From positions 1 through 51,174 of the forward strand of contig JANXRG010000099.1 of NCBI GenBank assembly GCA_025353105.1: 51,174 nucleotides of DNA, in the 5' to 3' direction. The notes below the pieces were generated by a model. The model ran no database searches. It worked only from the letters and a program-made list of their open reading frames with translations, and was not told the DNA's origin. Of this stretch, positions 464-50,097 are shown piece by piece. The position numbers were made by a program, and so were the translations under genes. The stretch is from Verrucomicrobiota bacterium (GTDB lineage: Bacteria; Verrucomicrobiota; Verrucomicrobiia; Chthoniobacterales; SZAS-18). The stretch's first letter is position 1; each line of letters opens with the position of its first letter.

Positions 464-1534
464 ATGACCATTCTTCGTCCCCTCCGCCTTCTTGGCACCA
501 GTGTCTTTAGCGTCCTCCTCGCGGGATTCGCCCACGCCCAGGTCGGGCTGTCGTTGCCTGAGCAAAGCCAGCGTGCGGTCGTCAACCAGCGCGTCGCGCT
601 CACCGACATCACGATCACCTATCATCGTCCGCTGGTGAATGGACGGAAAATTTTTGGCGGACTCGTGCCCTTCGGCGACGTTTGGCGCGCTGGCGCGAAT
701 TTGAATACCACGATTGAATTTAGCAGCCCCGTTTCGATCGAAGGCAAGCCGCTCGTCAAGGGCATCTACGGCCTCCACATGATCCCGACCGCGGATTCCT
801 GGACCGTCATTTTCTCCAAGGCGGCCACGTCGTGGGGGAGCTACGGCTATGATCCCGTGGAGGACGCACTGCGCGTCACGGTCAAGCCCCAGCCCGCGCC
901 GATGCAGGAGGCGCTGGGGTACGAATTCAACGAGTTGAAGCCAAACTCCGCGCTCATCACTTTGAGGTGGGACCAGTTGGCGGTGCCGTTCGGGGTGTCG
1001 ATTAGCGACGAAGACGCGACGCTTCCGAATGTCCGCGGCCAGATGCGTGGGGCGCTGCAATACACATGGGAGGGTTGGAACTCGGCCGCAACCTTCTGTC
1101 TCGAGCGCAAGATCAACCTCGGGGAGGCGCTCAAGTGGATCGAGAAATCGCTGCGCAACGAGGAGCGGTTCGAGAATCTTCAGACCAAGGCGAATCTGCT
1201 CCGGGCCTTAAATCGCGCGCCGGAGGCCGTCGCGATCACCAAGCATGCCATGGAGATTGCACCCGCGCCGCAGCTCTATACGTATGGGCGTCAGCTCCAG
1301 GGGCAGAAGCAACCCGTCGAGGCGCTGGAGATTTTCAAGGCGGTGGGGAAGCGTTATCCCGACAGCATTTACGGCCACCTGGCCCTCGCGCGGATCGCTT
1401 CGTCCACGGGCGATTTCGCGACGGCGACCAAGGAGGCGACGGCGGCCCAGGCAGCGTCGCAAAATGACGACCAAAAGAAGGCGATTCAGGGCCTCCTCGA
1501 CCGGCTGCAGCGCAAGGAGGACGTCAACAAGTAA
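464..1534 (+). CDS. DUF2911 domain protein with C-terminal TPR-like repeats, exported
   Basis: The 356-residue product starts at the ATG at 464, which directly precedes a signal peptide (about residues 1-25, ending in AHAQ). The open frame extends upstream to 311, but that part lacks protein-like character. Residues about 30-170 carry DUF2911 features: a 'RPLVNGRKIFGGLVPFGDVW' core followed by 'WRAGANLNTTIEF', a 'GIYGLHMIP' strand and 'WTVIFSK'. The C-terminal part (about 230-350) is helical, with TPR-like alternation of small residues (LLRALNRAPEAVAI; GHLALARIASSTGDFATA). DUF2911 proteins are common exported proteins of Bacteroidota and Verrucomicrobiota with no established reaction. It probably acts in the periplasm or on the outer surface. 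No operon partner is visible. Confidence 0.85.
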   Translation: MTILRPLRLLGTSVFSVLLAGFAHAQVGLSLPEQSQRAVVNQRVALTDITITYHRPLVNGRKIFGGLVPFGDVWRAGANLNTTIEFSSPVSIEGKPLVKGIYGLHMIPTADSWTVIFSKAATSWGSYGYDPVEDALRVTVKPQPAPMQEALGYEFNELKPNSALITLRWDQLAVPFGVSISDEDATLPNVRGQMRGALQYTWEGWNSAATFCLERKINLGEALKWIEKSLRNEERFENLQTKANLLRALNRAPEAVAITKHAMEIAPAPQLYTYGRQLQGQKQPVEALEIFKAVGKRYPDSIYGHLALARIASSTGDFATATKEATAAQAASQNDDQKKAIQGLLDRLQRKEDVNK

Positions 1535-1758
1535 GCCATGGTGGGAAAGGAAGATGTCCAATGCGGAATGGCGAGTGATGGGTGACGAGTGGCGAGCGGC
1601 GGAGCGCGAAGACGCCCGCAAATTCGAATCCCGCCCGTGTTCTCGGCGTGCTCGCTGAGGAGCAAAATTGGCTTCCGGTTTTTGTCCCGGGGCGGTTAGC
1701 ATCTTGGCCGCCCCGCCCGCCAGGGCGTCGGCGCGCCGCCCGTTCCAAACCGACCAAT

Positions 1759-2178
1759 ATGATCCAAGCCTTTCTTCAACTGAATCATCTGGCGGTCTGG
1801 ACCACCGCCTTGGTCGGATTTCTTCTTGGCTGGTTGTGGTTTGGTCCGCTCTGTGGGCGCGCGTGGATGGCGGAAATGAAGTTCACCGAACTGAATATCG
1901 CCGCCGCGAAACCCCGCATGGCGCGGCTTTTCGCGCTGGGTTTTCTCTTCACGTTGCTCGCCACTTATGGACTGGCCGTCCTGATCACCGCCCACCGCTC
2001 GCCCGGTTGGCTGAAAGGCGCTGAGTTCGGTGCATTAGTCGGCGCGCTGGTCGTAGGCGCTCGCATCCTCAATGGCGCGCTCTGGGAGAACCGCTCGACT
2101 CGACTGCAAGCCATTGTCGTCGGTTACGAGATTGTGCTCTTCACGTTGCAGGGTGCGATCTTCGGGGTCTGGCGCTAA
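1759..2178 (+). CDS. DUF1761-like integral membrane protein
   Basis: The 139-residue product from the ATG at 1759 is hydrophobic with about four transmembrane segments (around residues 10-32, 55-77, 84-102 and 117-137). Typical DUF1761 marks are the opening 'NHLAVWTTALVGFLLGWLWFG' type segment, a 'GPLCGRAWM' loop and late 'GALWENRSTRLQAIVVGYE', where homologues have a Trp/Glu-containing loop. The frame is open upstream to 1582, but those residues look non-coding (low-complexity, repeat-derived). Function is unknown for the family. It stands alone, 225 bp after the DUF2911 gene. Confidence is good for a membrane protein and moderate for the family name. Confidence 0.75.
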   Translation: MIQAFLQLNHLAVWTTALVGFLLGWLWFGPLCGRAWMAEMKFTELNIAAAKPRMARLFALGFLFTLLATYGLAVLITAHRSPGWLKGAEFGALVGALVVGARILNGALWENRSTRLQAIVVGYEIVLFTLQGAIFGVWR

Positions 2179-2260
2179 ATCCGGGCCGGGCACCCGCGGC
2201 CTTTTGCGAACGCATTCGCATCGATGACGACCTTTTGATGGTCGCCCCAGCTGCTGCATT

Positions 2261-2989
2261 TTGATTGTGGAACGCCTCGAAATTTGCTTCATCGGTGGCC
2301 TGGCCCCGCGCTGGCTTTCCGCATCGGTATTCCTGCTGGTTCTTTCGGCGCTCGTGCCGGAGTGGTCGTTCGCGCAAAAATCGGATCTCGAGAACGAACT
2401 CAAGAACCTGCCGAAGGTGCCGGGCACGCCCGCGCCGCCGAACATGGGCTCCGGCCCGACGCGCCTGAATCCGCTCGGACCGTACCTGCAGGAGTTCACT
2501 GGGGTGCAGTTCCCCGAGCGCGTCGGGGGATTTGAACGACGCGGCGTGGATCTCTATGATGCGGAAGCCCGGGACGTCGGCGCAAGCTACGAGAAGAATG
2601 GAGGAAGCCGTGGCTTGTTGTCGCTGATCACCGTTTTTAGTTATCCCGTTCCACTGACCCTTGCGGCCGGGGGCATGCGGGCGGTCTTTGACGACGCCAA
2701 GGCGGCGATCCTCTCGAAGAGCCCGGGCGCGAAGCTCGTGCGCGATGGAACCTATAGGGCGCCGGATGGCAGCAACGGTTTTTTTGCGGAATACACGATT
2801 CGGAACTTTGGCGGTAAGAAGGGCACGGTCCCCGTGCGTTCACGGCTTTATCTTTTCGGGAGCGGCGGCTGGTTGTTGAAATTCCGCGCGACCTACCCAG
2901 AGTGGCGCGCCGGGGCAGCGTCGACCGAGCTCGAGTCGTTCATCCGATCTTTCGGCACGGGCGTGATGCGAGGAAAGTTGGGCGTTTGA
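2261..2989 (+). CDS. Exported protein of unknown function
   Basis: The frame starts at TTG 2261, or more likely at the in-frame GTG at 2267. Neither has a convincing ribosome binding site. The N-terminus contains a hydrophobic core (WLSASVFLLVLSALVPEW) and a plausible cleavage site after SFAQ, so export is likely. The mature part (about 200 residues) has no motif I recognise. It contains a short Pro-rich linker (GTPAPPNMGSGP), then a mixed alpha/beta region with 'FPERVGGFERRGVDLYD' and a late 'RSRLYLFGSGGWLLKFRATYP' strand pair. Codon third positions are G/C-rich like those of its neighbours, which supports real coding. The start remains uncertain. Confidence 0.7.
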   Translation: MIVERLEICFIGGLAPRWLSASVFLLVLSALVPEWSFAQKSDLENELKNLPKVPGTPAPPNMGSGPTRLNPLGPYLQEFTGVQFPERVGGFERRGVDLYDAEARDVGASYEKNGGSRGLLSLITVFSYPVPLTLAAGGMRAVFDDAKAAILSKSPGAKLVRDGTYRAPDGSNGFFAEYTIRNFGGKKGTVPVRSRLYLFGSGGWLLKFRATYPEWRAGAASTELESFIRSFGTGVMRGKLGV

Positions 2990-3315
2990 ACTCGTTCCAC
3001 ACACCTCGTGATGGAACCGCGCTCGTAGAATCGCGGGCGCTTTCAACCCCGGGGCGTGCGCGGTTCACTGTGCTTGTCGGGAATGGAGTCCTCGCCCGGC
3101 GTTCTCCCTGACGGCGGGTTGACCGACGCATTCGGGGAGTGGGCGATTCCAATGATCTCCCCGTAATTTGGGCGTGACGCGCAACTCCGCGTGCATCCGA
3201 GCGTTTCTTGGGGATGCATCGTCCCCCCGGTCTGGCGACCACCCTCGCGCGGGCGGGAGTCGGCGACGATTTCCCGTCCCGCCCTAGCACGGCATTAGCT
3301 GAAGAAGGGATCCTT
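2990..3315. other. Intergenic stretch before the kinase gene
   Basis: No convincing gene lies here. Short frames on both strands are not protein-like. A TTGACC hexamer at about 3119 could be a -35 element, but I see no matching -10. Immediately before the GTG at 3316 there is an AGAAGGGA ribosome binding site, which decides the kinase start. Confidence 0.4.
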
Positions 3316-6048
3316 GTGAACCCTGAAGCGCCCACCTCCGGCCCGTCGCCGGCGTCGCCCGTGGTTGAACCACCTTTGCGGTTCGGCCATTACGAGGTCC
3401 TGCGCCATCCGGATGGCCAGCTCTGGGAGCTCGGGAAGGGCGCGATGGGCGTGACCTACAAGGCCCTCGATACGCGGCTCAAGATCGAGGTTGTCCTCAA
3501 GCAAATCCGGCCGCGTCTGCTGGAGGACGAGCGCATGCAGCGGCTGTTCTTGCGCGAGGCCCGCGCGGCTGCCAAGGTGCGGCATCCCAACATCGCCGCG
3601 GTGATTCACCTCAGCGACCGCGAACCATTCTTCTACACGATGGAGTTTGTGGCGGGGCGTTCGCTGGCCGACCTCCTGAAAAAGCGCAGTCCGCTGCCGG
3701 TGGGTGAGGCGCTGAACTACGCCGACCAGGTTGCCTCCGCCCTCGGCGCGCTGGCCCGCGAACGCATTGTCCATCGCGACCTCAAGCCGGCGAACTTGAT
3801 GCTGCTCGCCGATGACGAGATGACATTTGGCGTGCTGGTCAAAGTCATCGACTTCGGGCTCGCCAAGGGTTTCAGCGACGGCGGCCTTGCGGCGCAAACG
3901 CACCTGGCGGGGGATGTGTCGCAATCCGGCATCTTCAGCGGCACGCCGTTTTACGCGAGCCCCGAGCAATGCGCCACGCAGCCCGACATTGATTCGCGCT
4001 CCGATCTCTATTCACTGGGGGTAATCCTTTGGGAAATGCTGACCGGAACGCTGCCATTCTTCGGCACGCTCGGACAGGTGATGGCGATGCATCAATTCCA
4101 GCCGCCGCCGTGGGAAAGGGTCGCGGATCTGCCGACCGACGTGCGCGAGATTCTCCGGCGCCTGCTGGAGAAGGATCCCGCGGAGCGTTTTCAGAATCCG
4201 CGCGAATTGCGCGAGGCGATCGCAATCTGCCGTACGGACAGCGAGCGACGTAGCCTGCTTGCGCCGGGCGCCGATTCGGCGTCCGCGCCCGAGGTGGATG
4301 GGACCGCGGAGTCGGTGGCGACCGACGTGGCGCTCGGCACGCGGTACCGCCTGGTGGAGGCCTTTCCCGAGGGCGATGGCGGGCGGGTTTATCGCGCGAT
4401 CGATCACGCCGCGGGCGATGCCACGGTCGCGATCAAACTGTTGTCGCAGGAGTGCGCCACGCATGAGGAGTTTCTGAATCATCTGCGCGCCGAGATCGCG
4501 AACATCAAGGCTTCCGCCCAGCCGATGTTTCTGGCGTCGCCGCTTGAACTCGGGGAAGCGGACGCGGAAAGATTCGTGGTGCGAGAATGGGCGGAGGGGT
4601 TTTCGTTGATGACGCTGTTGCGCGCCCGTCGCACGATCACGCCCGCCGAAATTCAACGACTGCTGGCCGTGTTGCCGGAAGCGCTGGATGCCGCGGCTCC
4701 GCTCGATCTCGAATTCACCGAGCCGCTGCTGCACAAGTTGTTTGTCACCTCGAACGCGGGCAGCTGGCCGCGGACGGAGCTCCTTTCGCTGCGCACGCGG
4801 CCGCTGATCGATTGGCCGGCTTTTCGACTGCGCTGGAATCCGCTGAATTTTCGCGCGCCCGACGACGCCACGATGAACGAAGTAACGCGCGTCGCGCTCG
4901 ACGCGGAATTGCAAACCAACGATCCGGTGGTGGCGCTCGCTCGCTTGATTCGTGAGCTCCTGGGCGGCCGGCCCGGCGGAACCACGATTCTATCCGCTTG
5001 TTCCGACCATTCGAACTCCGTCTTGCGCCGGGCGCTCGCCCCGGGCGGGGGTCGCCTGACGTATACGACGGCGGCGGAATTCTGGCGCGCGTTTTTCCAG
5101 GCAGATGCCGTCGTCCCGCCGCCCGCTTCAACGGTCAAGCCCATGCCGGTCTCCGTCTCGCGACCAGCCTCGACATCATTCAAGGGCCAGCCGCCAGCCG
5201 CGCTGGAGTCAAGATCGCCGCCGCCCGTGCCGAAGAAGGGTCCTCCTTTTCTGATGCCGGCCACTTTTATCGTCGTTGTGGCGGTCGGCCTGATCGGCTG
5301 GTGGAAGGCGGAGCAAAGGAAACGGGGCGCTTCGTCGCGGCCCCGCGTCAGCGCCGTCCAACCGTCGATTTCCGCTGCGCCGGTGCCGCCGCAGGTCGCG
5401 CCCACCGTGTCCGCGCCCACGCAAAATCGGCCCGTGGTCGTCGCACCAGCTGCGCTGGCGCCGACCGGTGCCGCGGCGGTTGCCGCGTCGGGTCCCCCGG
5501 CCGCGCCGCCAGCGTCTTCGTTCGAGAACCGCCTCGGCATGCGATTCGTGCCGGTGGCGGGAACGCGCGTGCTCTTCGCCGCGCGCCAGACTTCGCGAAC
5601 TGATTTTGCCACGTTCCTACGCGAGGCCGCGTACAAATCTCGCGGTGGGGCGGGTGAGATCGTCGCACCCGGCGCGAGCGTGGCGAGACCGGACGCGCAG
5701 CCCGTGACGAACGTGACGATCGACGACGCGAGGGCCTTTTGCCTTTGGTTGACGCAGCGCGAACGCGCGGTCGGGCGCTTGGGTGCCTCGCAAGTCTACC
5801 GGCTCCCCAATAATTTTGAATGGACCATGGCCGGCGAGGGCTCGGACAACCGCCGTTCAAATCCAAACCGGTACGGGATCATGGATCTGCACGGCGCGAT
5901 TTCCGAGTGGTGCGAGGTCCCGCGCGGCGCCGGCCTGCATGTCATTCGCGGCGGACAGCATCCCGCGGCGATCCCCGCCACGAGCGCCGATTTTCGCAGC
6001 CCCTCCGTGGGATTCCGCGTCGTCGTCGGCGAAGGGCCGGGACGATAA
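3316..6048 (+). CDS. Membrane Ser/Thr protein kinase with pseudokinase and FGE-like C-terminal domain
   Basis: I chose the GTG at 3316 because AGAAGGGA lies about 6 bp upstream; this gives 910 residues. Domain 1 (about 25-310) is a complete Hanks-type kinase: glycine loop GKGAMGVTY at 40-48, Lys62, catalytic HRDLKPAN with Asp155, DFG Asp179 and a GTPFYASPEQ activation segment. Domain 2 (about 340-600) resembles a second kinase with a VAIKLL lysine but no HRD or DFG, so it is a likely pseudokinase. A Pro-rich linker and one transmembrane helix (FLMPATFIVVVAVGLIGWW) follow. The C-terminus (about 735-910) resembles sulfatase-modifying factor/FGE-type domains (NRLGMRFVPV; YGIMDLHGAISEWCE; VIRGGQ; VGFRVV) but lacks the active-site cysteines, so it is probably a ligand-binding or structural sensor outside the membrane. 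The likely role is transmembrane signalling; the substrate is unknown. Confidence 0.93.
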   Translation: MNPEAPTSGPSPASPVVEPPLRFGHYEVLRHPDGQLWELGKGAMGVTYKALDTRLKIEVVLKQIRPRLLEDERMQRLFLREARAAAKVRHPNIAAVIHLSDREPFFYTMEFVAGRSLADLLKKRSPLPVGEALNYADQVASALGALARERIVHRDLKPANLMLLADDEMTFGVLVKVIDFGLAKGFSDGGLAAQTHLAGDVSQSGIFSGTPFYASPEQCATQPDIDSRSDLYSLGVILWEMLTGTLPFFGTLGQVMAMHQFQPPPWERVADLPTDVREILRRLLEKDPAERFQNPRELREAIAICRTDSERRSLLAPGADSASAPEVDGTAESVATDVALGTRYRLVEAFPEGDGGRVYRAIDHAAGDATVAIKLLSQECATHEEFLNHLRAEIANIKASAQPMFLASPLELGEADAERFVVREWAEGFSLMTLLRARRTITPAEIQRLLAVLPEALDAAAPLDLEFTEPLLHKLFVTSNAGSWPRTELLSLRTRPLIDWPAFRLRWNPLNFRAPDDATMNEVTRVALDAELQTNDPVVALARLIRELLGGRPGGTTILSACSDHSNSVLRRALAPGGGRLTYTTAAEFWRAFFQADAVVPPPASTVKPMPVSVSRPASTSFKGQPPAALESRSPPPVPKKGPPFLMPATFIVVVAVGLIGWWKAEQRKRGASSRPRVSAVQPSISAAPVPPQVAPTVSAPTQNRPVVVAPAALAPTGAAAVAASGPPAAPPASSFENRLGMRFVPVAGTRVLFAARQTSRTDFATFLREAAYKSRGGAGEIVAPGASVARPDAQPVTNVTIDDARAFCLWLTQRERAVGRLGASQVYRLPNNFEWTMAGEGSDNRRSNPNRYGIMDLHGAISEWCEVPRGAGLHVIRGGQHPAAIPATSADFRSPSVGFRVVVGEGPGR

Positions 6049-44493: not shown

Positions 44494-46899
44494 TTACTTG
44501 ATCGACTCCTTGGGGGCGAGCATCGCGACCATGGCGTCGAAGCGCGCATCCCCGCGCAGGGAATCCCAGTCGTAACCGAGCTTCAGGTCGGCATACGACG
44601 GACCCCCGGGGATGGCGGTCACGACCGCGAGCAATTCCAAGGCGAGATCCTTTTCACCCAATATGGCGTGAACCGCCGCCATGTCAGTGAGGTAGCGCGG
44701 CGCGTCGATTTTATCGCGGCTCAGTGGGACAAGATCGCATGCACGCTTGGCCTCGCGAATCGCATCCTCGCGCCGACCCAGGTACGCATCGATCACCGCG
44801 AGACGGCAGAGTGCCGGCGCGGTGTCGCCCTGCGCCAACAGGACTTGGCTCACCTCCGCGCGGGCCCCGGTGAATGCAGAGCGGGCCGCCTCGGCGTCGC
44901 CGCGCATGCGGGCCAGGCGCCCCGCGTACCAGGCGCGTGGTCCGGGGAAACCATCCCGATCCGTCAGGCCCGCCGCGGGCAACACCTCATAGGCGATGGC
45001 GGCAGCGGTCGGGTCGCGTTCCCATTCCGCCAGGTCGAATGATTCGGCCGCCACATCGCGCGCCGCGTCCGGCCCGACGGCCTCCGCGATGTTGATTGCA
45101 GCGCGAGCCGGTTTCAAATCGGCTGTCCATTCCGCTTGGGTAAAGGCCAGGATCAGGCGGGCAGTATCCGCCGCCATGTAGGGGTCCTGGGTGATCGACT
45201 CCATCGCGTCACGATAGCGGCGCATCGCCCGGTAGGTGGACCACAGGTTGACCATGACCCGTCGACTTTGTGGATCCAATTCCCGCGCCCGCCGCAGGTT
45301 TCGCAGGGCGTCTTCCCACCGGCCCTCCCGCCGGTCAATTAGGCCGAGGAAGCCGGGTATTTCCGCGTCGTTCGGCAGCAGGCGCTTCGCCAGTTCGAGT
45401 TCCCGCCGCGCCGCGCCCAGATCTCGGAAACCCCAATACGAATGGATGGCGCGCGCGAGGTGCGTTTCGCCGGCCTCCGGATTGAGCATCTCCGTGGCTC
45501 GCACCGCGGCCTCCGCCAAGGCCAGCCGATTTGTCGTATGATCGTGATTGAACCAGTAGATCAGATCGTGAACTTGGGCGAGCTGCGCTTGCGCGAGCAG
45601 AAACGACGGGTCTCGGGCTACCGCATCGTCCAGAAGCTGGGCGCATTGCAGGAGCACCTCCCTGTCGTTGACCGCTCCCCGCGTTCGATCCTTGAGTTCG
45701 AGGGCCCGCCGATACAGATCGTACGCGATCATATCCTTCGTCGGAGGCTGAGCGATCGCCACTTTTTCCGCTGGGGAAATCTTGGCCCGTAACTGGGCCG
45801 CGATCGCCTCCGCCACCTCGCTCTGGATCGCAAAAACGTCCGCCAGATCGCGGTCGTATCGCTGCGCCCAAACGTGCGCGTCGGAACGCGTGTCGATGAG
45901 CTGCGCCGTCACGCGCACTTTGCCTCCCGCCCGCTGCACGCTGCCCTCGAGCACGTAGGCGACACCGAGGGTGTTGCCAATCTCGCGAAGATTGCGTTGC
46001 ACGCCGGTCTTGTAGTGCATCACCGACGAGCGGCTGATCACCTTCAAATCCGCGATCCGCGCGAGGTCGGTCAGGATCTCATCCTGCATTCCGTTCGTAA
46101 AAAAAGCGTTCTCCTCGTCCTTGCTGAGGCTGTCGAAGGGAAGCACGGCGATGCTTTTCTCCGGAATCACGGGCGCGACGACCGCGGGCGCAGCGGTTGC
46201 GGGGGTCGCAGTGGTTCCGCGCCCCATGCGCCATGCCAGGAACGCCGCGACGATGGCCACCGCGATCGCCAGCGCCGCCAGGACGAAGCGACGCCGCGCC
46301 GCGACCGACGACTGTTTTGCCCCGGCTTTGCCCGAATCATTTTTCGGCGGGCGCATCGGCGGGAAATCGCGCGGCAAACCGGGGGCGACCAATTGCAGGA
46401 CATCAACCGACTGAGTGGGATCATCGAGCGGGCTCGAGCCGATCCTGACGAGGGTGGCATCGACGTCGCGCTCTGCTGCGATCACCTCCGCCGCGGCGGC
46501 CGACACGAGAATTTGCCCGCCATGCGCCAGGTCGAGCAAACGCGCCGTGCGGTTCAACGCGGGGCCGAAGAAATCCTTGCCGCGTCGTTCCGCGCTGCCG
46601 AAATGCAGCGCCATGCGGACCTTGAGTCCTTCCACCGCGGAAAAATCCTCCACCTGCAGCGCGCGCTGCAGGTCGATGGCGGCATTGGCGGCATCCGCCG
46701 GCCGGGAATAATAGACAAAGAACGCGTCGCCGGCGGCCTTGAAGATCTTGCCGCCATGTTCGCTGGAAAACTTTCGCATGATCGTGTCATGCCGCGCCAC
46801 GGCCTTCTCCATGGCGGCGCGATGCTTCAGCCAGCGCACGCTCGAGCCTTCGATATCCGTAAAGAGAAAAGCGGAAAGCCCGCCGGTGGCAGAGGACAT
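44494..46899 (-). CDS. Class III nucleotide cyclase with TM segment, TolB-like domain and TPRs
   Basis: I use the ATG at 46899 (MSSATGGLSAFLFTDIEGSS). The cyclase domain (about 1-165) has all key residues: metal Asp15 (FTDIEGSS) and Asp58 (KAAGDAF), Lys54, Asp109 (KDFFG), and Asn116 and Arg120 (ALNRTARLLDLAHGGQI). It should make cAMP or cGMP. A transmembrane helix follows (about 213-235, FVLAALAIAVAIVAAFLAWR). Next is a TolB/FlgO-like domain (EKSIAVLPFDSLSKDEENAF; GVAYVLEGSVQRAGGKVRVT), then TPR-like helices to the end. This layout is a recurring family in which the outer part is thought to sense signals. The gene stands alone. Confidence 0.92.
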   Translation of the reverse strand: MSSATGGLSAFLFTDIEGSSVRWLKHRAAMEKAVARHDTIMRKFSSEHGGKIFKAAGDAFFVYYSRPADAANAAIDLQRALQVEDFSAVEGLKVRMALHFGSAERRGKDFFGPALNRTARLLDLAHGGQILVSAAAAEVIAAERDVDATLVRIGSSPLDDPTQSVDVLQLVAPGLPRDFPPMRPPKNDSGKAGAKQSSVAARRRFVLAALAIAVAIVAAFLAWRMGRGTTATPATAAPAVVAPVIPEKSIAVLPFDSLSKDEENAFFTNGMQDEILTDLARIADLKVISRSSVMHYKTGVQRNLREIGNTLGVAYVLEGSVQRAGGKVRVTAQLIDTRSDAHVWAQRYDRDLADVFAIQSEVAEAIAAQLRAKISPAEKVAIAQPPTKDMIAYDLYRRALELKDRTRGAVNDREVLLQCAQLLDDAVARDPSFLLAQAQLAQVHDLIYWFNHDHTTNRLALAEAAVRATEMLNPEAGETHLARAIHSYWGFRDLGAARRELELAKRLLPNDAEIPGFLGLIDRREGRWEDALRNLRRARELDPQSRRVMVNLWSTYRAMRRYRDAMESITQDPYMAADTARLILAFTQAEWTADLKPARAAINIAEAVGPDAARDVAAESFDLAEWERDPTAAAIAYEVLPAAGLTDRDGFPGPRAWYAGRLARMRGDAEAARSAFTGARAEVSQVLLAQGDTAPALCRLAVIDAYLGRREDAIREAKRACDLVPLSRDKIDAPRYLTDMAAVHAILGEKDLALELLAVVTAIPGGPSYADLKLGYDWDSLRGDARFDAMVAMLAPKESIK

Positions 46900-47100
46900 G
46901 GATAGCGAGGGCTCTGGACAGCCGCTCCAGACGGGAAGTTGCCAGAGGGTGCCAGCGTTGCAAAGTCGCATCTGGGCGGGACCGGCGGCAAGGAGCCGGT
47001 TGCTTTGTTGAACCGCGCCGGCGCGGTCGTCAGGCAGGCTGCTTCCGCAATAATTTCGCCATTAGTCATTGGTTGGTAACGAATTTGCTTGGTACGTAGC

Positions 47101-50097
47101 ATGATCTTGAACGCAAGACTCGCGACCTTCCCCCTGGCCCTATGTCTCCTGGTCAGCGCCGCGTGGGGCCAGACCACCCTTCGCGTGGAGGTGGTCGACG
47201 ACACGGGCAGCACGTTCTCGCCGTATCTGCTGCTCGTGGGCCAGGATGCAGCGGGGGCGGGCACGACCACCTATCCGCTAAGCATCGATCCGGCCGGCGG
47301 CAATCTGGCCCTGGCCGATGCCGGCCTGGCCACCAACAACGTCGCCCCGCTGTCGATCAACCAGCTGAAACCGGCGGGCTACAACGTGACCTCGCTCTAC
47401 ACCGGCCAACCACGTCCGGTTTACTATTTCAATGTCACCACGATCGGCGCGGGCGCCTTCATGGTGTTCCAAAACGACGGTAGTCGCACGGTCCCGTTTA
47501 CGTACATCAACAACGCGAATCCCAGCCCGGTCACGGCAAATTATCGCTTCGACCAATGCGAGATCACGTTCAATTCCAACATCACGAGCGGCGCAAATCT
47601 CACGAGCATCGATGCGTTCAGCATGCCGATGCAGTACGAGCTTTTCACGGGCACGTATCCGAATCTCACGCCGGTGGATCAGCGTAAATATTATCTTTCG
47701 ACGCAGTCGATGCTGACGGCATTTCAAAACATCGGCGCGGGCCAGGCGCTCTACAAACTGGGGCCTGCCACCACGCCGGTGAAAGGCTGGACGCCCGCTG
47801 ACGGCATGGCGCAATTTGTGCGCGCGCTTGGGCCGGGGCAGGCGGCTGCCCCGAGTTCGTTGGGGAATCCTGCGCCGTATCCGACGTTTGCGACGTACCT
47901 GCAGCAAGTGGTCGGGCCGCCGGCGGCGGCGACGTTTACCATCGCCGGCAATGCCAACGGCAGCGGTTATTCGTACACCGGCCAGGTGCAGAGCGACAAT
48001 CACGGCGGTTACCAGATTCTCCTTAACAACGGCACCACGAATCCTCCGCCACCGAGTCCCCTTCCGAGCGGCGCAAATGTGACGGTCAATCTGCCGATCA
48101 ACCAGAAGGCCACGGCTTCCGCTACCGGCTCGGCCAGCGGCGCACTGACCGCCCTCAACGTGAACACGGCGGGGGCCGGCTACAACAATCCGCCCATTGT
48201 GACCATCAGCCCTCCCACCATCTTCCCCGCCGCGGCGTCAGCCAATGTCGCCGGTGGGGCAGTCACCGGCTTTAACATCATCAGCGCCGGCTCCGGCTAC
48301 ACCAGCGTGCCGACCGTCACCATAACCTCGCCGGTCGGCACTGGCGCGGCGGCGACCGCCATCCTCACGGGCGGTGCGGTCACCGGTTTCAGCATCACCA
48401 ACGCTGGCAGCGGGTACACCGGACCGCCGAATGTTAGCCTGAGCCCTCCGCCCCCCGGTTCCACCGCCACGGCGACGGCCAACGTCTCCGCTGGTGCGGT
48501 CACCGGCCTTAACATTGCCGATGCCGGCGCCGGCTACACCAGTGCGGCCGCCGTGAACATCACGCCGCCCGCCGGCAGCATGGACACCTTTCTTTACGGT
48601 GCCACCCTCAGCGCAGACGCGTTTTCCGTAGTGGGTGTTTCCTATGCCACCCTGCAGGCCGATACCAATATCGTGTATGGGGCCATTGCGCGTGACGCGC
48701 TGGCGGCGATCAATTTTGGTTACGTAAACGGCCGGTATGGGTCCTCGAGCGTGACCTGGTACGGTGCCGCACCCACCGCCTTTCCGTTCGGACTCTCGCG
48801 CGCGACCAATGACGGTTATTATAATCCGTGGGCGGCGATCCTGTATAATAACAGCGATGCCTATGGATTTGCGTTCAGCGACCGCAGCGGTCCATCGCCG
48901 CTGATGGGCTTGCAAGCCGGGCAAACGATGCGCATCACGCTGCTGCCGGATGCCAGGCTCGATTCGCCCAAGCCGTATGTGGCGGACGTCCAACCCACGT
49001 CCATGGAAATCGAATGGCAGGCTGTGCCTAACGCAACAGGCTATTTGATCACGGTTCTAGCCCCCAGGGGCATTTCGCCGATAAACGTGGCAGCTCAGGC
49101 GGGGATAAATCGTTTCCCTTTGTCGGGTTTAAACCAGGCCACGCCTTACACGTTCACCGTCGCGGCGACCGGCACGGCCAGCAGCAAACCGCTGATCAGC
49201 CCGGCGCAGCCCGTCCAAGGCCGCACCACCGGCACCCGCGCGACCGTGACCGGCGCAGTGCAGTTCAACATGGCAATGTCGTGGAGTCCTCCGACGACGA
49301 TTGCTAGTCCGCCGGCCGTGAGTTTCGACAACCAGACGCTGACCTATCAATCCAACACGCAATGGCTCAACAATGGATTGAACGCCACCTTGTCCGGCGT
49401 CACGGGCAGCGCGAACCAATATGTAATGACGCTGCAGGACGCGAACCAGCAGGTGATTTTCACCAATATCATCACCGCCACGTTTTCGCTGGTCGCGGGC
49501 TCAACGACAAACTTCACCGTCAGCGAGGGCACGCTCTTCGGAAATGCCCAGCCGCTCACGCCGAGTCCGCCCGCCGCGTCGTATGTCTCCAATGGCGGGA
49601 GCGGTCAAGCGCTCACGCTGGCGGTGCCCTTCAATCCCATTCCCCAAAAAGCCTTCGCGCCAGCGCTCGTCCCGGGCGTAGGCTACAACCAATGGGTGAG
49701 CGGGTTTACCGGCCTGGCAAATGCCGCGCCCGCCGCGGCACCGCAAAATGACGGGATCAGCAACCTGCAGAAGTATTTTCAGGGTCTCGATCCCCTGGTG
49801 ACCGGCCCATTCGACGCCACCGCCGCTGACGTCACGACCGACCAACTGGTCTTCCGGTACCGCAAGAGCAAATCGATCACCGGCGTGACGCCGCAGGTGG
49901 AGTGGTCCGCGGATTTGCTGATCTGGCAGACCAGCGACGTGACGTTCGATCCTGAACAGGACTTCGGTGATCACCTGCAATGCACCGCGCGTGTCTCGCG
50001 CGCGAGCGGCGCGGCAAGGTTCATCCGGCTCCGCGTTATCTTGACCCAGGCAAGGTCGCCGAAGGGATCCGCTCCGCAGCTGGGCCCACGCCGCTGA
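47101..50097 (+). CDS. Secreted GH64-like (beta-1,3-glucanase) protein with inserted repeats and Fn3 domain
   Basis: The 998-residue product has a signal peptide (about 1-23, ending AAWGQ). The GH64/thaumatin-like glucanase signature is clear: 'RFDQCEITFNSNITSGANLT' and 'SIDAFSMPMQYELF' hold a Glu and an Asp placed like the catalytic pair reported for GH64 enzymes. Residues about 341-488 are 3-4 repeats of about 39 residues (GYTSVPTVTITSPVGTGAAA; TAILTGGAVTGFSITNAGS). The GH64-like sequence then resumes (MDTFLYGATLSADAFSVVG; SRATNDGYYNPWAAILYNNS). A fibronectin III domain (about 620-710) and a C-terminal 'FRYRKSKSITGVTPQVEWSA' module follow. It probably cleaves beta-1,3-glucan outside the cell. 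Confidence 0.85.
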   Translation: MILNARLATFPLALCLLVSAAWGQTTLRVEVVDDTGSTFSPYLLLVGQDAAGAGTTTYPLSIDPAGGNLALADAGLATNNVAPLSINQLKPAGYNVTSLYTGQPRPVYYFNVTTIGAGAFMVFQNDGSRTVPFTYINNANPSPVTANYRFDQCEITFNSNITSGANLTSIDAFSMPMQYELFTGTYPNLTPVDQRKYYLSTQSMLTAFQNIGAGQALYKLGPATTPVKGWTPADGMAQFVRALGPGQAAAPSSLGNPAPYPTFATYLQQVVGPPAAATFTIAGNANGSGYSYTGQVQSDNHGGYQILLNNGTTNPPPPSPLPSGANVTVNLPINQKATASATGSASGALTALNVNTAGAGYNNPPIVTISPPTIFPAAASANVAGGAVTGFNIISAGSGYTSVPTVTITSPVGTGAAATAILTGGAVTGFSITNAGSGYTGPPNVSLSPPPPGSTATATANVSAGAVTGLNIADAGAGYTSAAAVNITPPAGSMDTFLYGATLSADAFSVVGVSYATLQADTNIVYGAIARDALAAINFGYVNGRYGSSSVTWYGAAPTAFPFGLSRATNDGYYNPWAAILYNNSDAYGFAFSDRSGPSPLMGLQAGQTMRITLLPDARLDSPKPYVADVQPTSMEIEWQAVPNATGYLITVLAPRGISPINVAAQAGINRFPLSGLNQATPYTFTVAATGTASSKPLISPAQPVQGRTTGTRATVTGAVQFNMAMSWSPPTTIASPPAVSFDNQTLTYQSNTQWLNNGLNATLSGVTGSANQYVMTLQDANQQVIFTNIITATFSLVAGSTTNFTVSEGTLFGNAQPLTPSPPAASYVSNGGSGQALTLAVPFNPIPQKAFAPALVPGVGYNQWVSGFTGLANAAPAAAPQNDGISNLQKYFQGLDPLVTGPFDATAADVTTDQLVFRYRKSKSITGVTPQVEWSADLLIWQTSDVTFDPEQDFGDHLQCTARVSRASGAARFIRLRVILTQARSPKGSAPQLGPRR

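Follow-up and report, generated by a model that had tools for sequence, protein, structure and literature searches.

A GxGYT repeat block inserted within the GH64-like domain of a putative secreted protein from a Verrucomicrobiota bacterium

The insertion of one domain into the catalytic domain of a glycoside hydrolase is already known, and there are published cases with which a new example can be compared. Among the sialidases of glycoside hydrolase family 33 (GH33) from Clostridium perfringens, NanI and NanJ are reported to carry a beta-sheet domain within the catalytic domain, lying away from the catalytic site, while NanH is given in the text cited as lacking it (PMC11525138); the case indicates that inserted domains may lie far from an active site without directly affecting it. 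Likewise, Dpo31, the tail-spike depolymerase of the marine phage Carin-1 (PDB 28lx, 28mg and 8ck1), is described as having a protruding immunoglobulin-like (Ig-like) domain, D3* (residues 434-536), which is inserted in its polysaccharide-degrading domain and is reported to be inactive on its own (PMC13317679). For family GH64 the reference is LPHase, with Glu154 and Asp170 given as its catalytic residues and Thr156, Asn158, Trp163 and Thr167 as its sugar site (PMC4758615). Here we describe a 998-residue open reading frame (ORF) in a 51,174-nucleotide stretch of DNA, hereafter the window, from a Verrucomicrobiota bacterium (assembly GCA_025353105.1, contig JANXRG010000099.1), whose GH64-like domain is interrupted by a block of repeats that we call GxGYT units. 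It is the presence of this module in a GH64-like core that is new, and among the papers listed by our searches of the open-access literature none dealt with repeats inserted in a GH64 domain or with the GxGYT unit itself, which is of course no proof of absence.

The repeat block stands inside one GH64-like domain, as the initial annotation of this DNA had suggested. This was established by comparing nine proteins, namely that of the window and eight relatives with a readable core, which come from genomes G169 (L003, also L069), G310 (L046, also L065; a genome of the window's own order), the bacterium isolate GS31 (L066), G384 (L070), G638 (L071), G482 (L072), G577 (L073) and G776 (L128). A profile of 452 columns, made from the insert-free relatives L071, L073 and L066 with the window excluded, matches the window in two stretches, one at 47173-48042 (profile 10-286, E 3.3e-44) and the other at 48361-48969 (profile 252-452, E 3.9e-46), the left end of the second entering the repeats; L072, a relative with two units, likewise splits the profile, into 10-309 and 300-452. 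Such a match on either side of the block argues for an insertion inside a single domain. Between the flanking anchors the net length is 159 residues in the window, 88 in L072 and 192 in L070, as against 2, 4, 2, 8 and 9 in L071, L073, L066, L003 and L046, and L128 is without a block by inspection, so that three of the nine proteins carry GxGYT units at this site (four in the window, two in L072 and about four in L070) and six do not. We left the distant GH64-type proteins L038, L041 and L123, together with a frame upstream in L075, out of this count because the insertion site could not be placed in them confidently. Homologues without the insertion, which the annotation had proposed to look for, are therefore at hand, and neither of the outcomes that it had named as contrary, repeats following a complete GH64 domain or a far side with no GH64 similarity, was found.

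Taken together, these proteins form a natural series in which one catalytic domain occurs both with the block and lacking it, two of the six block-free members (L003 and L046) having another type of repeat elsewhere in the domain. The series allows a direct test of whether domain insertion alters the action of a glycoside hydrolase on insoluble glucan, and with it both the timing of the insertion and the role of the block can be asked about.

By alignment, the core of the window protein retains both catalytic residues of GH64, the Glu and the Asp. E154 and D171 are invariant in all eight rows of one alignment (A2), and so are their columns in the eight rows of a further alignment (A9), five of which are GH64-type; in an alignment with the GH64-type structure 3gd0 the pair falls at chain positions 120 and 136 (a hand count, offset 34). 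Read by eye, residues of the LPHase sugar site find matches in T156, N158 and T168 of the window protein, and Trp163 finds none. Set against canonical GH64 enzymes of the LPHase type, then, the domain is collinear and retains the catalytic pair, and it differs in being very distant, in having a 159-residue block inserted, in the addition of a fibronectin type III (fn3) domain and further C-terminal regions, and in lacking a counterpart of Trp163.

The two flanks of the block are not equally easy to place. On its own, the near side (residues 24-340) matches the Pfam GH64 family PF16483 at E 3.6e-6 with 26.9 bits, the cut-off being 27, and it is because the protein falls below this cut-off that we name it GH64-like rather than GH64. 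The description of this side as glucanase-like was thus right, albeit for a distant relative, and that of GH64-like sequence on both sides is upheld by the two insert-free profile matches. The near side of the insert-free relatives meets five GH64-type proteins of the phylum at E 1.3e-12, and the whole insert-free profile matches one of the distant GH64-type proteins, L038, across profile columns 10-445 (E 9.7e-9). A joint profile of the three insert-free relatives and the five GH64-type proteins finds eight GH64-type sequences in the PDB (E 4.2e-30 to 4.7e-12), with 3gd0 aligned over 8-401 of 407 at E 2.2e-25, although this profile holds canonical members and its PDB match alone is no proof of membership. 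Used by themselves, the three relatives reach 3gd0 at E 0.044, below adenovirus fibre proteins at E 9.8e-5, a match that we take as chance similarity but whose rank means that the unaided GH64 signal is weak. When all eight relatives were used, the PDB search was swamped by fn3 domains.

For the far side, the similarity to GH64 is weak but apparently collinear, and it is bridged by other GH64-type proteins. It aligns with the end region of GH64, where SAINFG in L071 and AAINFG in the window face AAGNRG in L033, and YGFAFSDR faces YAFSYDD. Among 1346 ORFs from the fetched loci (some loci being repeated), the far-side profile finds the C-terminal ends of L038 (E 1.1e-8), L041 (E 5e-5) and L033 (E 0.0012), of which L038 and L033 lie over the Pfam GH64 cut-off and L041 lies under it (23.5 of 27 bits). 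Against a GH64 identity for this side, the same search did not list L035 or L036 and gave L034 and L042 at only E 0.29 and 8.6. The weak far-side matches that it gave in L072 and L075 turned out to lie in a second GH64-like frame immediately upstream. Global alignment of the far side with hhalign was uninformative (118 of 200 shuffles did as well), and the one PDB match of the far-side profile, a VHH antibody at E 0.48, was judged to be chance.

The block itself (residues 336-494) consists of four units of 39-41 residues, with borders placed by eye and a pattern of roughly ATATA-x-V-x-GGAVTG-x-x-I-x-x-AGSGYTS-x-P-x-VTI-x-x-P. The initial annotation had spoken of three to four repeats of about 39 residues; the repeats and their length stand, and their number is exactly four. 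Pairwise identity among them is 46-61%, and their summed pairwise score of 551 compares with 131 +/- 19 in residue shuffles, none of 1000 of which scored as high. At the DNA level, Tandem Repeats Finder reports no tandem repeat in 47900-48800, which suggests that the units are old and led us to reject recent tandem duplication as their origin. GxGYT is a common repeat that is unnamed in the libraries searched: a Pfam scan of the block alone and an NCBIfam scan of the whole protein each gave no match.

Where, then, do such units occur? Profile comparison shows that they are akin, in sequence, to repeats of phage virion proteins. In PHROGs the block matches 21 families up to E 1, the best being tail fibre and virion structural proteins (7.5e-19), followed among others by head closure (3.6e-17) and baseplate wedge (1.6e-15) proteins; families phrog_5342, 701, 4406, 460 and 708 have by profile the same unit as the window block, and several of these are conserved structural proteins, for example those of head closure and the baseplate wedge. 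An IMG/VR scan confirmed GxGYT units in 41 loci out of 139 pattern matches, and a tblastn search of the phage collection with the block gave no match, perhaps through the low-complexity filter. Against the PDB, a profile of the block and 12 viral stretches finds one solved protein, Dpo31 (residues 431-508, E 1.3e-5), the next match, at E 0.088, being judged chance. The likeness to the published D3* domain is twofold, since by sequence it comprises two GxGYT units and is inserted in a polysaccharide-degrading domain; the difference is that the host enzyme of D3* is described as a beta-helix depolymerase of a phage tail, and that of the window is GH64-like. A common, unnamed repeat is in this way linked with an Ig-like domain of solved structure, one that also interrupts an enzyme which degrades polysaccharide. 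Exactly two GxGY motifs are found in 11 of 17 other motif-bearing ORF stretches, a count in which several ORFs are cut by locus ends and degenerate units escape the strict motif.

Further GxGYT pairs were seen in bacterial proteins. One belongs to another protein of the window's own genome (L002; G000 contig 101, 19328-19675), where the part of the protein covered gives no Pfam match. Another lies just before the last copper domain of a multicopper-oxidase-type protein (L029:1-2865, Cu-oxidase_2) and is possibly a further insertion in an enzyme; this could not be demonstrated, as every match in the five genomes that gave one, out of 145, lay at the repeat or close to it, and the relatives on plasmids were remote.

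In the AlphaFold2 model of the block, which used an alignment with the 12 viral stretches, two units pack as one compact six-stranded bead of about 80 residues, and this is probably an Ig-like bead. Mean predicted local distance difference test score (pLDDT) is 79.6, with 82-96 in ten-residue blocks over model residues 41-120. Among predicted viral proteins (BFVD) there are 39 matches at E 0.001 or better, and two of these superpose closely (ranks 10 and 19; root-mean-square deviation, rmsd, 1.1 across 75 columns and 1.3 across 78), which is the size of two units; the preponderance of two-motif ORF stretches is in line with a bead of this kind. At two units per bead, the window would carry two beads. 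Of the 23 matches listed by VIA-align, 13 span about 40-120, seven span about 1-165 with 67-75 aligned residues and three do neither, and these spans hint at a nested insertion, in which a bead of units 2 and 3 may be seated inside a second bead made up of units 1 and 4.

In a maximum-likelihood tree of 12 rows, built on the cores minus their blocks, the three proteins with GxGYT units cluster (83/92), the window and L072 pairing within them (99/98); L003 and L046 pair at 100/100, three canonical GH64 rows stand apart (97/94), and long branches were flagged for L033, L128 and L073. The grouping of the bearers makes one insertion among these relatives, followed by a change in array length, the simplest reading of the sequences, with moderate branch support. 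At E 1e-10 or better the gene is found in three of the order's 213 genomes, one of them that of the window, and at E 1e-12 or better in seven of 384 genomes of the class; among the genomes listed, the other two from the genus and four from the family (86-92% complete) gave no match. A presence so rare and scattered suggests that the gene is patchily kept or passed around. No relative was found in a plasmid collection searched with the near side, none of 49 pattern matches in viral contigs encodes a relative of the whole protein, and pattern scans of genome contigs yielded no relative among 17 pattern matches in the first and two in the second.

Judging by two sets of observations, proteins of this family accept small beta repeats at several positions. 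L003 (ORF 478-3021) and L046 (ORF 1189-4110) hold a different repeat, FTSGxNxG...GDxF, in the same GH64-like domain, by eye roughly 20 residues downstream of the GxGYT site and again in the N-terminal part. Pfam Phage_BR0599 (PF09356) matches it in L046 (residues 467-509, E 1e-5, over cut-off) and in L003 (residues 104-145, E 0.0023, under cut-off); PHROGs listed nothing for either protein, and a PF09356 search of the window's own genome gave no match. L072, for its part, has a second GxGYT pair at residues about 754-866, downstream of fn3, besides the two units at the catalytic-domain site. Directly upstream of the L072 gene, in the same genome, lies the end of another GH64-like frame (L075:1-1125; 375 residues, E 2.1e-6 to the insert-free profile), so that the two look like a tandem pair of GH64-like genes.

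The reading that we favour, and which seems to us somewhat probable, is that of a secreted GH64-like enzyme in which a loop of the catalytic domain took in GxGYT beads, most likely adding binding surface. The bead module would have entered a loop between two conserved stretches of the GH64-like catalytic domain, and the array would then have changed in length to the two units of L072, the four of the window and the roughly four, divergent ones of L070 (whose sole PHROG match is at E 8.4e-5 over residues 405-493, the unit count being a by-eye reading). The product would be a secreted enzyme of the beta-1,3-glucanase type, to whose surface two additional beads are attached where the chain crosses over twice, and these beads might tether it to insoluble glucan or a cell wall, much as carbohydrate-binding modules do at the end of a chain. 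From its sequence the window enzyme is most likely a beta-1,3-glucanase, an activity that we infer, and the block is probably an accessory module that binds a glycan or a surface, a function that we infer by analogy with Dpo31.

A number of results weigh against this reading. On the enzyme side, the whole protein has no match to PF16483 up to E 1 and is thus below the GH64 cut-off, a six-frame search with PF16483 gives 25.3 bits, again below it, and a whole-protein GH64 match is found in just two of the eight aligned relatives (L073 with 35.2 bits, which passes 27, and L066 with 16.3). The far-side profile meets a five-sequence GH64 set at E 0.15-0.18, with 16 of 200 column shuffles as good; by eye, LPHase Trp163 has no counterpart in the window; and AlphaFold2 gave a useless model of residues 24-700 (pLDDT 35.1, four alignment rows). 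As for the block, neither it nor a phage block used as a single sequence finds any match in the PDB, Dpo31 included. Outside model residues 41-120, that is in the outer units 1 and 4, pLDDT is mostly 65-78 and falls to 46 at the very end, and the alignment has its greatest depth at the centre, a bias towards units 2 and 3 as a bead. A Foldseek search of the PDB with the block model gives a best E of 0.19, with none of 127 matches (E 10 or better) at 0.001 or better, and Dpo31 is absent among the best 50 of these. VIA-align reaches a Z of at most 3.0, and several of its rows are Ig-type domains, by which the name of the fold is not established; most BFVD matches superpose loosely, with rmsd 3.5-31 over longer alignments.

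It is possible, if on balance unlikely, that the block is instead a tolerated and nearly neutral loop expansion, in which the beads of a promiscuous module have been kept as spacers or decoration and bind nothing at all. Copy number does vary (two, four and about four) with divergent units in L070, two relatives have a different repeat type elsewhere in the same domain, L072 has its second pair in the downstream region, and in GH33 the insert is described for two enzymes out of three, at a distance from the catalytic site (PMC11525138). The retention of a unit consensus in a divergent family nevertheless suggests that the bead is under constraint, although a constraint on the fold alone would suffice. 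A bolder and more doubtful idea would make of GxGYT pairs an unlisted, mobile, Ig-like glycan-binding module, shared by phage virions and secreted bacterial enzymes, which spreads into surface loops, even in the middle of a catalytic domain, and grows by nested insertion of one bead into another (units 1 and 4 around 2 and 3).

A further alternative, which we regard as decidedly unlikely, is that the GH64-like part is now a binding or structural domain without glucanase activity and that the whole is an adhesin-like surface protein. A score under the GH64 cut-off, the missing Trp163 counterpart, the fn3 domain, a C-terminal domain met again in further proteins of the phylum and two neighbouring genes without a polysaccharide-use domain are all in keeping with it, but E154 and D171 are invariant in eight of eight rows and the window protein retains two residues of the LPHase sugar site, T156 and N158. 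Least probable, and to our minds very improbable indeed, is the short beta-solenoid arm of four units in line that the initial annotation proposed. Although the units are rich in Gly, Thr and Ala, regular in length and predicted to have three short strands each, the related solved stretch of Dpo31 has been published as Ig-like (PMC13317679), the AlphaFold2 model and its structural matches converge on a separate two-unit bead of 80 residues, and two motifs exactly is the count in the 11 of 17 ORF stretches mentioned above.

Coordinates of the gene and its parts are collected in Table 1.

Table 1. Features of the GH64-like gene, in window coordinates
Feature	Position	Strand	Basis
Coding sequence, GH64-like putative secreted protein with inserted repeats	47101..50097	+	Open ORF, 998 aa, homologues found
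Putative signal peptide, residues 1-23	47101..47169	+	By-eye reading: hydrophobic stretch, then AWG|Q
GH64-like catalytic domain, first part, residues 25-332	47173..48096	+	PF16483 E 3.6e-6; insert-free profile E 3.3e-44
Codon of E154, counterpart of LPHase catalytic Glu154	47560..47562	+	Conservation and 3gd0 alignment
Codon of D171, counterpart of LPHase catalytic Asp170	47611..47613	+	Conservation and 3gd0 alignment
Inserted block at site A, 159 aa between anchors, four GxGYT units	48097..48573	+	Absent in 6 of 9 proteins
GxGYT unit 1, residues 336-376	48106..48228	+	Pairwise unit comparison
GxGYT unit 2, residues 377-415; together with unit 3, the bead modelled with good confidence	48229..48345	+	Unit comparison and AlphaFold2
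GxGYT unit 3, residues 416-454	48346..48462	+	Unit comparison and AlphaFold2
GxGYT unit 4, residues 455-494; final GSM common to the catalytic-domain anchor	48463..48582	+	Unit comparison, anchors
GH64-like catalytic domain, second part, residues 492-623	48574..48969	+	Insert-free profile E 3.9e-46; far-side profile
Fibronectin type III domain, residues 627-697	48979..49191	+	PF00041 E 1.5e-7
C-terminal domain, residues about 860-980, without Pfam match	49678..50040	+	Recurs in other proteins of the phylum

The divergent neighbour at 44497-46971 on the minus strand encodes a guanylate/adenylate cyclase domain with a weak FlgO/TolB-like match and TPR regions, and has no obvious link to glucan use; in the two adjoining genes checked there was no polysaccharide-use domain. 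The protein of the window begins with a hydrophobic stretch that looks like a signal peptide, and fn3 is the sole domain that Pfam recognises when all 998 residues are searched. Homologue searches gave many matches on query residues about 855-990, several reaching a stop codon, and this C-terminal domain of some 120 residues is perhaps one for sorting or anchoring.

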